From positions 16,837,001 to 16,901,000 of the forward strand of contig OY540817.1 in NCBI GenBank assembly GCA_961205875.1: 64,000 bases of DNA, written 5' to 3'. The notes beneath the pieces are model-generated. The model did no database searches and was not told where the DNA came from. It saw nothing but the letters and a program-made list of their open reading frames with translations. The DNA is from Sialis fuliginosa (lineage: Eukaryota > Arthropoda > Insecta > Megaloptera > Sialidae). Numbering within the stretch: position 1 is the stretch's first letter; the number at the start of each line of letters is the position of its first letter. Of the stretch, positions 5,331 through 52,290 are shown piece after piece. Made by a program: the position numbers and the translations under genes.

Positions 5331-5384
5331 ACATACTATAATCTAGAATCTAAGCAGGTATCTCTGCAAGCAATCAATACAGTG

Positions 5385-5561
5385 GATCTTGGCTTCTGGG
5401 TGTAAGCCAACATCTTCAAGGCTCTTCTAAAAGTGCACTTTTAGAAGAGCCCTAAAGATGTCCACTGCAATATGTGACGAAACGTTGGCCGATAACACAA
5501 CCAAACCGACGCGGCTTACACCCAGAAGCCAAGATCCATATCAAGGTCACCGCGGAAGCCT
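5385..5561. mobile_element. Hairpin retroelement with hammerhead-like motif, family A copy 1
   Basis: The insertion is flanked by near-identical 10-bp direct repeats CAATACAGTG (5375-5384) and CAATATAGTG (5562-5571). The left part is an inverted partial copy, with GGCTTCTGGGTGTAAGCC opposing GGCTTACACCCAGAAGCC at about 5511. A long palindrome lies at the junction (AGGCTCTTCTAAAAGTGC / GCACTTTTAGAAGAGCC). The plus arm ends CCGCGGAAGCCT. This head-to-head dimer layout, with target duplications, suggests reverse transcription with 5' inversion. Confidence 0.7.
5449..5489 (+). ncRNA. Hammerhead-like motif, degenerate (family A copy 1)
   Basis: The order is GCC (stem I), CTAAAGA (core, with the G of CTGANGA changed to A), a stem-II hairpin pairing GTC-CAC with GTG-GAC imperfectly, GAAAC, GTT and GGC (stem I). 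The core mutation predicts loss of cleavage. Confidence 0.45.
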
Positions 5562-5571
5562 CAATATAGTG

Positions 5572-11260: not shown

Positions 11261-11429
11261 ACAATTAGTAAATCTTGAGGTTTCCACGATGATCTTGATA
11301 TGAATCTTGGCTTCTGGATGTAACCCGCACACTTTTAGAAGAGCCTTGAAGATGTCCACTGCAATGTGTAACGAAATGTTAGCCAAAACACGACCAAATC
11401 GACGCAGTTTACATCCAGAAGCCTAGATT
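11261..11429. mobile_element. Hairpin retroelement with hammerhead-like motif, family A copy 2
   Basis: It is inserted into family B and flanked by a perfect 13-bp duplication, AACAACTTTTCTT (11248-11260 and 11430-11442). The left arm is an inverted copy including the tail (GAGGTTTCCACGATGATC) and GGCTTCTGGATGTAA. The right arm is direct and ends TTACATCCAGAAGCC. The architecture matches copies 1 and 4. Confidence 0.8.
11343..11384 (+). ncRNA. Hammerhead-like motif, degenerate (family A copy 2)
   Basis: The order is GCC, TTGAAGA (first core C changed to T), a stem II built from GTCCAC and GTGTAAC (one arm mutated), GAAAT, GTT and AGC. Two core or stem changes argue against activity. Confidence 0.4.
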
Positions 11430-22609: not shown

Positions 22610-23115
22610 GTGTGGTTTTATTCATTAAACAATGTGTGTTAAATTAAAATAAATTAAATAAAAGTTGTTTATTATAATCAAAAAGTGTGTATATAAATGA
22701 ACATATAAGTAATACAGAACGTGTTCTTCTTGTAAATAACGTCTATCCACTTTTATATTATGATATTGAGAAAAGCTTTTGTTTATTCAATTTTCAAAAT
22801 ATATTTTCACAGACATAACTTTGAATCATATATTCATATTGTAATGTTTCCAGTTACTTTAACATATCCCATTCAATTTGCCATCACTGTGATATATTTA
22901 CATACATATAGATATTCAAACAAAGGATGTACAGTTTTCACTTTTATAAATACAAAAAAAAAAAAAAACTATCATATATTATAGGTATAATAGAATACGC
23001 ATAGAATTTCCCTACAGATTTGCGTGTATTTATTTTAAAATCGACAACTGGCCGCATAACTAACTGCTCTAAAACGTAGGCACCATATTTCCACCATGAC
23101 ATCAATTTAATATTA
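22610..23115. other. AT-rich stretch, nothing recognised
   Basis: The frame at 22760-22984 runs into a poly-A stretch and has no motifs. Confidence 0.5.
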
Positions 23116-23187
23116 TAGATTTAGTTTCTGGGTATAAGCCGTGTCAATTTGGTTGTCATATCAGACGAAGTTTTGTCGCACATTACC
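23116..23187 (-). mobile_element. Family A hairpin element, decayed fragment (copy 3)
   Basis: The minus strand reads AATGTGCGACAAAACTTCG, then GACAACCAAATTGACACGGC and TTATACCCAGAAACTAAATC. This aligns with AATGTGTGACGAAACGTTGG..ACGCGGCTTACACCCAGAAG of the intact copies. Only the part from stem II to the tail remains, and GAAAC has become AAAAC. Confidence 0.55.
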
Positions 23188-42600: not shown

Positions 42601-42767
42601 TCTGCGAGTTGAGATGTTTGGGTAAAGTTAGAGACGAAGTATACTTGTGTATTCTACCCACTAGAATTGAAGAGGTCTATGATTTATTTATACATGGCCA
42701 TTTATACAATATTAACTTTAAGTCATATATGTATTATATTAAATACAAAAAAAACATACTAGGTAGG

Positions 42768-42930
42768 ATCTTGGCTTCTGGGTGTAAGCCGCGTCGCACT
42801 TTTAGAAGAGCCCTGAAGATGTCCACTGCAATGTGTGACGAAATGTTGGCCGATAACACGACCAAACCGACGCGGCTTACACCCAGAAGCCAAGATCCAT
42901 ATCAAGATCACCGCGGAAGCCTCAAGACTG
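42768..42930. mobile_element. Hairpin retroelement with hammerhead-like motif, family A copy 4
   Basis: The left inverted arm, GATCTTGGCTTCTGGGTGTA then AGCCGCGTC, opposes GACGCGGCTTACACCCAGAA then GCCAAGATC. The plus arm runs on through CCGCGGAAGCCTCAAGA. The plus frame at 42564-42974 crosses both this repeat and the CpG island, so it is accidental. No convincing target duplication was found here. Confidence 0.7.
42810..42850 (+). ncRNA. Hammerhead-like motif with intact core (family A copy 4)
   Basis: Stem I GCC/GGC; core CTGAAGA (42813-42819); one extra base; stem II GTCCAC/GTG-T-GAC with loop TGCAAT; then GAAA, T, GTT. Stem III is reduced to almost nothing (A-U plus a T-G wobble). The core fits CUGANGA..GAAA, but the extra base after the core departs from the canonical hammerhead. 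Confidence 0.45.
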
Positions 42931-43194
42931 TAGGTGTAAATATCAATAATTTTTTTTTTTTACTTTTAAAGTAATTCAGATCACTTGTATTTAAAATCAA
43001 AAATAAAAATGTAATTGTAAATGTAAATGTTAATTGTAAAACTGATTTAAATTAATGTAACTCTACTTAAGGTTCATTACTTAATTAATACATTTTATCA
43101 CATATATTTCAAGAGAGATATAAAAAGTACAATCCATATTTGATTAATTTATGCAATTATACCAAATTCAGGGAAACTGGTTACATATCATTTC

Positions 43195-47102: not shown

Positions 47103-47465
47103 AAGAGTGACCGCAAAAAGGCTGTTTTTTTGGACCTCGTTAGCGACCTGGGGAAGAAATATAAAAATATGTTACAGGTACCAAGTTACTCGTCATTGAA
47201 AACTAAAGTGAGCATCGCTTTTCTTTTTTTGAAAATTTCTATAAATTATCCCTATTCAGGGTTGAAAAAATTCAAAAAAATCAAAAATACCACTAATTAT
47301 AAAATCATTTATCATTGTATTTTTCCTATAAAATAAACCTTACAAATATGTTATCACGTATTTTCATGCTCACTTTGGTTTTCAACGACGAGTAATATTT
47401 AATATATTTTTTCCCCAGGTCGCTAGCGAGGTCCAAAAAATAGGCTAACTTTGCGGTCACTCTTT
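47103..47465. mobile_element. MITE with long inverted ends (AAGAGTGACCGC type, family Y)
   Basis: AAGAGTGACCGCAAAAAGGC, TTTTTGGACCTCGTTAGCGA and CCTGGGGAAGAAATAT at the left, and ACTCGTCATTGAAAACTAAA further in, are matched inverted at 47365-47465. The arms are about 110 bp. Both small frames here (47130-47336 and 47326-47547) are translations of the same arm. Its right end abuts the next hairpin element. Confidence 0.75.
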
Positions 47466-47626
47466 TCGAGCTGTTGTCCACGTTGCCGTATTTTTTTATT
47501 TCGACTCTCATGTTTCTGAAATACTTCTGAAGAAGAATGTGAGTCAATACGTCAAGTGAGAAAATACAACGTGGACAACAGCCTGAAAAGTTAGATCATA
47601 TGGACAACTGTCACAAAAACCTACAG
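47463..47626. mobile_element. Hairpin retroelement, second family (A-prime) copy 1
   Basis: The inverted arms TTTTCGAGCTGTTGTCCACG and CGTGGACAACAGCCTGAAAA flank a centre containing CTTCTGAAGAAG. The tail, GTTAGATCATATGGACAACT then GTCACAAAAACCTACAGAAA, aligns with the inverse left flank of the copy at 51442. Core CTGAAGA (47527-47533) is intact, but the GAAAC part reads CAATAC, so the motif is dead. Confidence 0.65.
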
Positions 47627-49715
47627 AAACATAATAAAAAAATTTTTACAAGCAAAACTAAATACAAATCTTTTTGAGGAGTATTTTCAGTGTGAACTTG
47701 AATTGATATTGCTTTGAAATTTCCAATGAATACGACCCTGTTTAACTAAATCATGTATCGTTTTGCATTATTCCTTTTAAAGAAAACCAATTTAATCGAA
47801 TGATTTATTAAAATATAATATAAGACATCTTTTGTGATTTTAAATCATATACCCCAATTAAGAAGATATTCAGAATTGTAATTTTACACCAACGTTTCTA
47901 ATGTATGAAATTGTATTTAATAATATATCCATATCCAAATTTGGTAAAATTATATATGCCATAGATAAATTTTGTTTCTATTATCTGTATAAAACAACTC
48001 ATACTTTTGACGTGAATAACGTCTAGAGTTTCAGGCCAGATACTGGATGGGAATTTAAGAAACTATATGTAACGTGCAAAGATCAGTTTTGCACGCTGAA
48101 ATCAAAACGCTTAACCAGTTTTAATGAGTGATTTTAATATTATAAAAAAACAATAACAAAAAATTAAATTTTATATTTCCACACCCATTTTTTAGAAATA
48201 TTTTTATCAATTATTTTCTTCATATATTGAATGTCAAAGAAAAGTTATTTCCATGTACGTATACATTTTTACTATTATATAAGAATGCAATTAACATTAT
48301 CATGTTAGTAGATATGTATTTAATTTTACTCATTAATCATTAAATGTATGAATACTATAAATATATTATCACAAAACTTTATCAATTAATAATTTATACT
48401 TAATAAAAACAATTAATTTCGAAAGTAATTAGTCATATAATTTCATTTGAAAACAAATATCATATTATAGATGTTAAATAATTCAAATAAGCAATTAAAA
48501 ATCAATTTTAATATCGCAATTAAAAATTACACTAAATAAATGTCACAAAAAAATTAATGATATAAATACGACACATGATTGACAAATTATATTGCCTGAA
48601 AAAAATGTGTTTGGTTTTACATAAATCAATTTTCTATTAATATTAATACTCGATTTAAATGAAAAGGATTATATTATATTTATTATAGCAATGATACTCG
48701 TACGTAATATGTCCACATAAAGGATGAATTTAAAGTATCTATAAGGATATTTATTCTATAATTAAAAATATAAACTTTATACGAATAAATGTATAAAAAA
48801 ATAATTTTATATTAAAATGGTTGTCCCTGGACTCGAATGGTTCCTTTAGACAGCCATTGAGTGGTTATAGAACTTTGTCTTTGTTTTTATTATTTTTTTT
48901 ATTTTTATTTTTTCTGGTAATTTTTTTTTGTCGCGGTTGTTTTTACGTTGTTTGTCTTGGTTTAATGTCTCCTACACAACCTTTCCCAAACACAGAGACA
49001 CTAAGATGGAAAGGATTAGCTTCGGGTCGATCATATATATACATATATGAATATATAACATCGTCAGGATAAGTACCTTATTTTTTATACTTTTTTAGTT
49101 ATTACATTTATATTATAATAAATGAAAAATATTGATAAAATTTTCAAAGTAATTTACAATAAAACAATTCAAATATTTTTTCTCAAATCTGCACGATATT
49201 TTACACGAATGTTGAAAAAATACATAAACCATCTAAGAGTATAATTAATACTTATTATTATTAACTTTATTAATATAACTGACATCACATAATATCAAAA
49301 ATAATTATTATTTTCAGATTGAAAAATCTTTCTTCCTTACTTTTTGATCATTCTATATGTATTTATGATTCATTTAATAAATTAATCCACTAAATTTGAC
49401 CGAGTTTCAATCAGAAACGTGGGTGCAAATAAATATTACGTACTTTAATTAATTAATTTGCGATTTAGTTAAATGATCAACAGGTATTATTTTTAATCTT
49501 TTTCATTAATGGCTTTGTGTCCTTTTATCTCTTTTGAGCTTGTTGACTGTAAAAACGAATTTGTATTTGCAATACGTTTTGTTGTATATTATATTGCATT
49601 TAACTTTCCAAAAATAGTATTATTGCAAAAATATATTCATTCTTATGACATAACTAATTGATACCTGAAATAAGTAAAAATAAATTAAAATTATTGAAGA
49701 ATGAATTTAAAAACC
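47627..49715. other. AT-rich stretch, nothing recognised
   Basis: The small frame at 48821-49072 is T-run driven. No element ends were seen in about 2 kb. Confidence 0.5.
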
Positions 49716-51309: not shown

Positions 51310-51441
51310 ATCCGTAAAAGAAATCGATATATAGTGTGTCAGAGGATAGATACATGTATGTAAACTGTAACAAGAGGTGTAATGAACAAAAAATTTCGAA
51401 TTTCGTAACGACATTTAGGGATCGAGTCCTGCTTGATGTAA

Positions 51442-51642
51442 TTTTCTTCTGTAGGCTTTTGTGGCCGTTATCCATAGTAGCTAACTTTTCGGGCTGTTGT
51501 CCACGTTGTCGTATTTTTACACTTGACGTTTCGAAATTCTGAAATAGTTTCAGAATCACTTCTGAAGAAGACTCCGACATGAGAGTCGAAACGTCAAGTG
51601 TAAAAATACGACAACGTGGACAACAGCCCGAAAAGTTAGCTA
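51442..51642. mobile_element. Hairpin retroelement, A-prime copy 2, with 13-bp target duplication
   Basis: CTGCTTGATGTAA is duplicated exactly at 51429-51441 and 51643-51655. Comparison with family B at 11560 and 52190 shows the uninterrupted target, so the insertion is proven. Inside, 51477-51536 and 51588-51642 are near-perfect inverted arms (TAGCTAACTTTTCGGGCTGT ... ACAGCCCGAAAAGTTAGCTA). The minus copy includes the 3' tail (TTTTCTTCTGTAGGC at the left edge). The plus copy is cut at AGCTA. This is a head-to-head dimer of 201 bp. Confidence 0.85.
51557..51600 (+). ncRNA. Hammerhead-ribozyme-like motif, best copy
   Basis: Stem I is CACTT (51557-51561) with AAGTG (51596-51600). The core is CTGAAGA (51562-51568), with one extra A. 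Stem II is GACTC (51570-51574) with GAGTC (51583-51587) and an 8-base loop. GAAA (51588-51591) and C follow, then GTC (51593-51595), the expected cleavage triplet. Stem III would be only AC/GT with no loop, so a single molecule could hardly fold it, whereas two molecules pairing through ACGT could. Minimal stem III motifs of this kind are known from Penelope-like elements. The extra A after the core is unusual. Confidence 0.5.
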
Positions 51643-51790
51643 CTGCTTGATGTAAAATTAACGTACCTATACAAGAATAAAGCAAATTTTTTTATTATTT
51701 ATATACTGAGAAAAGTTGTTTAAAATGTAATTTTGGTACCTCATACCCAATTACAGAAATAACTTTAAAAAATCGAAATGTAACAAATTT

Positions 51791-52039
51791 AAAAAAATGT
51801 ATTTTATTTTGAACGATAAAATAAAAACAAACATTTTGTTTTAATACTTTGGTTTTGAGCTTGTTCAATATTGACGACAAATTAGAAATGACAACACCAC
51901 GTTTGGCAGATAGTCAATAACAACTAAATAATGTGTCTCTATTGTTGTTTCCATATCCTAATTTCCACTTCACAATAAAATATCTAGTTAATTTATTGAA
52001 AGGGTTAATTTTTAATGCTTTGAAATTCAATATAGGGTT
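51791..52039. other. AT-rich spacer
   Basis: No feature was recognised. Confidence 0.5.
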
Positions 52040-52290
52040 ACAAAATTGCATTTTAAACAAAATAGTGGATTTTTATCATATTTTGAACATAAAGACACTT
52101 CCTTCTTGATTATTTTTACAACTTTGATTATAAAACATCCTGTAGAATGTGTAGAAGACCGAATAGACTGTTTATTGGTATATGTTAGTTTTACATCAAG
52201 CAGAACTCAATACCCAAATGTCATTCCGAAATTCGAATTTTTTTTGTTCGTTACACCTCTTGTTATCCTGGGGCACACTGTATATTTTTA
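52040..52290 (+). mobile_element. Interspersed repeat family B, copy 3
   Basis: It shares ACATCCTGTAGAA, TTGGTATATGTTAGTTTTAC, ATCAAGCAGAACTC, TTACACCTCTTGTTA and CCTGGGGCACACTGTATA with copies 1 and 2. The uninterrupted stretch around 52185-52205 is the empty-site equivalent of the 51442 insertion. Confidence 0.65.

Follow-up and report, generated by a model that had tools for sequence, protein, structure and literature searches.

A minimal type I hammerhead motif with an extra core base at the 5' end of a Penelope-like element in Sialis fuliginosa

A 201-bp insertion in the genome of Sialis fuliginosa (Megaloptera) carries a motif that resembles a hammerhead ribozyme, and raises the question of whether this motif is a true member of that class, to which element it belongs and what purpose self-cleavage could serve there. 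The insertion occupies positions 51442-51642 of the window, the whole 64,000-nucleotide stretch of contig OY540817.1 that was analysed (assembly GCA_961205875.1, positions 16,837,001 to 16,901,000 of the forward strand), and the motif lies at 51557-51600. With a probability of about 0.85, we consider it a minimal type I hammerhead from the 5' end of an endonuclease-bearing Penelope-like element (PLE), and the insertion a mini-insertion of two joined complementary DNAs (cDNAs). Self-cutting RNA of this type is already known in PLEs, and the window motif is one more case. Minimal type I hammerheads of these elements were reportedly described by Cervera and de la Pena in 2014 and by Lunse and colleagues in 2017, the latter in a paper whose title is said to speak of dimers.

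All parts of the motif named in the preliminary description are present, letter for letter and in the order given there. On the plus strand, the 5' strand of stem I (CACTT, 51557-51561) is followed by the core CTGAAGA (51562-51568, confirmed by pattern search), an extra A between core position A9 and stem II (51569), and stem II itself (GACTC at 51570-51574, GAGTC at 51583-51587). The loop of stem II, CGACATGA (51575-51582), contains the ATG of a reading frame at 51579-51581. GAAA (51588-51591), a C followed by GTC (51592-51595) and the 3' strand of stem I (AAGTG, 51596-51600) complete the motif, with a predicted cut between 51595 and 51596. The type I elements CUGANGA, GAAA and UH at the cut stand in order and are invariant across 12 groups of sequences in this genome. 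Stem II is not directly next to A9, as one extra base intervenes in all sites counted, and GAAA-Y-GT leaves no room for a stem III loop. The ACGT of the cut region (51588-51595) is self-complementary, so that the ACGU of GAAACGUH could form a stem III only between two copies. Lack of a helix III beyond the conserved letters, together with location in a pseudo-long terminal repeat (pLTR) of a PLE, is what sets apart the minimal PLE hammerheads in passages of two papers (PMC6155905, PMC7761336), and dimers of such hammerheads are likewise reported in passages of the literature (PMC6466107, PMC7761336). The motif shares both traits with them and, as in them, shows no evident loop-loop contact. 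The 44-mer folds as described. Its core pattern matches a single window site and none of 100 dinucleotide shuffles, and a script scan for CTGANGA with zero to two extra bases, at least three pairs in stem II and GAAA returned two window sites, namely the motif and a site at 42813 belonging to a second family, family A.

Comparison across the genome (392 Mb, 20 contigs) bears on the proposed stems. The intact core and stem II of family 1, to which the window insertion belongs, were found at 214 exact sites, against 0 in a backward control. Patterns that already contained part of stem II found further hammerhead groups, and 12 representatives, all real genomic stretches, were aligned and scored for a structure specified by the analyst; the 12 groups are not all mutually independent, and PLE membership with an own frame is not established group by group. 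Pairs form in 86.1% of the 108 cells (50.0 when shuffled), 43 cells are changed on both sides (shuffled 15.7), and the covariation score is 0.847 versus 0.195 (SD 0.047) for shuffled alignments and at most 0.143 when slid by one to three columns. The number of pairs with any two-sided change, 8, is not unusual, being reached in 84 of 500 shuffles. Stem I was absent from the patterns that found the ten new groups; 40 of its 48 pairs form over the 12 groups (shuffled 21.0), and, once look-alikes and families 1 and A are set aside, 23 of 28 form in the seven remaining groups (shuffled 13.3; 13 of 20000 shuffles reach this count). Pairs 3-5 of stem II, which were free in the patterns termed GG and GC, form in 29 of 36 cases (shuffled 13.3). 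Failure of both stems to covary among genome-wide copies had been named in advance as grounds for discarding the motif; both stems are supported, and the motif stands. A covariance model of the 12 groups (R1) detects five window copies, at 51554, 42805, 5444, 11338 and 47519 (E 3.8e-10 to 0.0034, the last value at 47519), although the sequence at 51554 belonged to its training set; three further weak matches in the window (E 0.026-0.67) were taken for chance.

The identity of the element is judged from the larger copies and from the shape of the insertions. In a larger family 1 insertion (L374), the stretch from one 5' end to the other carries a frame with a sub-threshold GIY-YIG match (22.0 bits, E 2e-4); the reverse transcriptase (RT) part lies outside this family 1 copy. 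In a relative, family B (L373), RVT_1 (E 1.3e-19) and GIY-YIG (23.0 bits) are both above cut-off. Both sides of that locus (L373:1-3601) hold an inverted, near-identical frame of about 1.4 kb with RT and GIY-YIG, and it is a case of two-sided copying that went far into the element. Genome copies, covariation of both stems and the GIY-YIG frame in the larger copy bear out the earlier suggestion of a PLE hammerhead.

A DNA search gave 598 first-look candidates, 40 of which were scored; among the matches listed, the window itself apart, 41 of 68 were 100% identical across 83 nt, which shows that many young copies exist, not that all are young, since only the best candidates were scored. At 77 unique family 1 loci (76 fetched and the window), the arm rule used recognized two arms in 51, and in all 51 one arm ends at the pLTR end (S) and the other about 32-34 nt further (T), with 0 SS or TT pairs. 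Two loci could not be classified (L331 '?', L349 '?T'). For family A, 19 of 32 loci are two-armed, all S + T, and 13 are T only, with a query that included the tail and so favours T ends. Target duplications of at least 8 bp flank 57 of the 77 family 1 loci and 48 of the 51 two-armed ones, and no sequence is shared beyond the outer arm ends between different places among 69 loci, some of them fetched twice. Head-to-head pLTRs, a tail on one arm and a target duplication are traits of endonuclease-bearing PLEs, and the insertions here show them.

The insertion in the window itself joins two copies of the PLE 5' end head to head. Its left-reading, inverted arm (51476-51534, minus strand) is fully complementary to the direct arm (51586-51644, plus strand), forming a perfect inverted repeat of 59 bp (59/59) that includes the 3' half of the motif. 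The inverted arm continues, deeper into the frame, into a 34-nt tail (51442-51475, minus strand) common to many other insertions, and a junction palindrome at 51535-51556 (plus strand) contains a putative RNA start (+1) at 51546. A reading frame, MRVETSSVKIRQRGQQPEKLA, opens at the loop II ATG and runs on through the direct arm. The target-site duplication CTGCTTGATGTAA is 13 bp long and lies at 51429-51441 and again at 51643-51655, where its first 2 nt also match the arm; it recurs in reverse orientation at 52191, within the second arm of a host repeat. That opposite arm (52181-52265, minus strand) lacks the insertion and serves as a recognisable empty site, identical to the joined flanks at 62 of 73 positions. 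As modelled, the whole insert forms a single extended hairpin (-118.3 kcal/mol, an energy reached by 0 of 200 shuffles), which absorbs GAAACGTCAAGTG, the 3' half of the ribozyme, and because of this the copy at 51557-51600 is probably inert and would be silent even if transcribed. The motif had been called a ribozyme or a recent derivative of one, and for the window copy the second term is the better.

Where the RNA begins, and whether its own cleavage shapes the copied template, may be judged from the arm ends. The end of full-length arms lies 16 nt upstream of CTGAAGA. At three loci (L367, L368, L374), common sequence extends further upstream, and in it TATATAAG starts 31 nt before the full-length arm end; another (L364) shares only the last 12 nt of it. 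From these sequences we infer that the full-length arm end, window position 51546, is the transcription start, in which case the mRNA would begin with the hammerhead. A set of 47 arms was taken from all 27 insertions on contig C1 with an exact pLTR end (32 places), whatever their hammerhead. If ribozyme cutting made the 5' end of the template, arms should stop at the cut, as exactly one does (L284, position 51, right after the cut); against this, 26 of the 47 end within 8 nt of the putative start, 11 more run past the cut to positions 9-49, and 9 end further in. With 37 of 47 arms copied past the cut site, the insertions derive for the most part from uncut RNA. The same conclusion was drawn in vitro for an anole PLE, whose insertion is independent of cleavage and whose ribozyme cleaves only with protein present (PMC11167929), and a template end made by cutting is disfavoured. 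The few arms that stop close to the base of stem II (at 40, 43 and 43, among the 47) do not suffice for a claim.

These data suggest a route by which the insertion may have formed. Two cDNAs of the RNA 5' end would be primed, one per side of a staggered target cut, and joined head to head; one would start at the pLTR end and the other about 34 nt deeper in the frame, with the 13-bp duplication left at the flanks. Both cDNAs of the window insertion reach past the ribozyme cut site, so the template would have been uncut there. S + T in every two-armed insertion agrees with a separate start site for each side. In the anole PLE (PAc, Poseidon of Anolis carolinensis), the tail likewise lies between two reverse-transcription start sites, and both strands are cut and extended (PMC11167929). 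PAc differs in family and host; in family 1, loop II holds the ATG, and the cut falls 14 nt downstream of it. In vitro, its start sites show no strand difference, whereas the two-armed insertions seen here (loci L250-L288, L319-L368 and L289-L318) always pair one of each and never two alike. As described in passages on Penelope of Adineta vaga, head-to-head pLTRs with a tail on one, a junction palindrome, short target duplications and a frame start in the pLTR are common to both systems, but the inverted pLTRs of A. vaga mostly bracket longer elements, whereas most loci seen here are bare 5' ends (PMC3846280). That paper favours self-priming on an antisense template; two separate initiations give a better account of the two outer ends found here, which are fixed and different.

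Several observations weigh against a functional hammerhead in a PLE. The folding energy of the 44-mer is ordinary, as 53 of 200 shuffles fold at least equally well, so that energy alone is no evidence. Cofolding of two copies favours another duplex (-25.4) over the double hammerhead (-18.1; two monomers -19.8). The Rfam hammerhead model has no match in the whole genome, a model that is also silent in all 14 control genomes. The GIY-YIG score of L374 (22.0 bits) is just under the Pfam cut-off of 22.6, and 24 of the 77 family 1 loci are single-armed by the rule used (19 T only, 5 S only), a rule that missed a short second arm in some of them (L320, L322, L323). Part of this evidence would be expected if the motif were a fossil, inactivated by the extra base and the missing stem III and kept only for the frame start or for protein binding. 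Ordinary monomer folding, a stem III without a loop, the disfavoured double hammerhead and the anole ribozyme, which is inactive without protein in vitro and whose loss has no effect on insertion (PMC11167929), all lean that way. Yet the core letters, GAAA and both stems are retained across the 12 groups with compensatory changes, and GAAACGT encodes Glu-Thr in some groups but Lys-Arg in others, which points to constraint at the RNA level; a fossil is unlikely on this balance.

Two readings that dispense with a PLE fare far worse. The size of about 200 bp and the presence of a hammerhead fit loosely with metazoan retrozymes, short tandem repeats that spread as circular RNA, as these appear in passages of PMC7229834. 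The units are, however, head to head and not in tandem in 51 of 77 loci, the arms are the start of a PLE frame, and larger copies hold PLE reading frames, so that a retrozyme is highly improbable. A hairpin DNA transposon (miniature inverted-repeat transposable element) with a chance likeness to a ribozyme would account for the perfect 59-bp inverted repeat and the target duplication, but its probability is close to negligible: the arms vary at their inner ends but have two fixed outer ends that differ from each other, some insertions are single-armed, and here too the arms correspond to the 5' end of a PLE frame.

Within the preferred reading, a hammerhead at the 5' end of a PLE, the base that follows CTGANGA is the feature that departs from the minimal PLE hammerheads known from reviews. 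It had been proposed to define a variant core and not decay, and the site counts agree: with the extra base, the patterns found 214 (GACTC stem), 991 (GTCCAC), 182 (GG; control 1) and 8 (GC) sites, and the first three classes, those covered by this count, gave 0, 0 and 1 when it was left out of the pattern, the single GG site being ambiguous since it also matches the pattern with the insertion. These counts mark the additional nucleotide between A9 and stem II as inherited. By eye, it is A in 99 among the 100 family 1 sites listed, T in 98 among the 100 family A sites listed, and T, A, G and C in 92, 6, 1 and 1 among the 100 GG sites listed; in the GC class it is T in 7 of 8. The plus-strand hammerhead of chrysanthemum chlorotic mottle viroid has an extra A next to helix II. 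It provides, in passages of PMC3705267, a natural case of an extra A in the core, though in a viroid RNA with no coding role, and one- or two-nucleotide insertions beside CUGAnGA occur in known alignments excerpted from PMC10085705. The extra core base looks like a stable trait in this genome, and searches with a strict hammerhead consensus would miss such sites.

Where the extra base is T and stem II starts with G, A9-U-G10.1 spells AUG. From this ATG, over 20 codons can be read without a stop in groups FA, FB, FC, FD and FG, some copies having a broken frame (L371, 5 codons), and in family A the predicted cut falls 26 nt after the start codon. In family 1 the extra base is A, and the AUG lies instead in loop II. 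It is tempting to suppose that the one-base insertion is kept so that A9-U-G10.1 can be AUG, with folding and initiation mutually exclusive and a PLE protein tipping the balance towards cut RNA, but we regard this as doubtful. Open frames of about 25 codons are not rare by chance, and as the copies are short their frames run into flanking DNA, so that chance openness is not negligible. Moreover, the frame is short in FE (13 codons) and FJ (12 codons), and FF, FH and FI lack an ATG in the motif; the start codon is therefore no general explanation of the extra base. In the literature searched, no statement was met that this base completes a start codon, a search to which the two most relevant papers did not belong, and we do not claim that none exists.

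What PLE hammerheads do is described as unknown in a passage of a 2020 review (PMC7761336). In this genome, the natural insertions speak against a ribozyme that makes the template 5' end, and overlap with the start codon points to another, directly testable role. In an active element, the mRNA would start at the pLTR promoter, the ribozyme would occupy approximately nt 12-55 and the AUG would lie within it, in the core or in loop II. The ribozyme would stay unfolded while ribosomes load, since folding and translation initiation would exclude each other. Binding of the RNA by PLE protein could then permit folding and cutting, and cleavage would remove both cap and AUG. Protein-assisted cleavage late in the cycle, taking the RNA out of translation, seems the likeliest role on these grounds, and we put it forward tentatively, as a guess.

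Related patterns were also sought outside this genome. With the core-only pattern, 111 stretches of viral contigs were recovered, 0 of them with at least 4 Watson-Crick pairs in stem II, and the family 1 motif was found in 0 stretches of viral contigs. One extra base with a GTCC/GGAC stem II occurs in 8 viral-contig stretches, and a longer pattern in 2 prokaryote-contig stretches; in 8 of the 10 stretches stem I has no more than 3 pairs, and in one (L113) it has 4. Model R1 reached at most 23 bits on 29 fetched loci from viral and prokaryote contigs. One viral contig (L119:1431-1460) reads CTGAAGA-A-GTCC..GGAC-GAAA and has an 8-pair candidate stem I further downstream. Canonical GTCC/GGAC hammerheads without the extra base are found in at least 120 stretches of viral contigs (L122-L241), versus 8 with one, and several may stand in series within one contig (three in L132).

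The window holds further copies, all on the plus strand. A second family 1 copy (47462-47628) is head to head and decayed, with half of stem II lost and GAAA altered. Family A is a second family built like family 1. Its copy at 42766-42933 contains the hammerhead at 42813, in which an extra T completes an ATG at 42819-42821 and the cut is predicted after 42847, the last base of a GTT triplet. The family A copies at 5383-5565, with a long palindromic junction, and at 11273-11428 are head to head, their cores altered to CTAAAGA and TTGAAGA, respectively. At gathering level, Rfam has no match in the window; at the E-value threshold it returned only the microRNA families MIR7504, MIR6445, MIR7696 and mir-3167, below their gathering scores, because of the long hairpin in the insertion. 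A minus-strand remnant at 23114-23184 is about 75% like family A, and the host repeat, which received the 201-bp insertion in one of its two long inverted arms, spans window positions 51368-52265.
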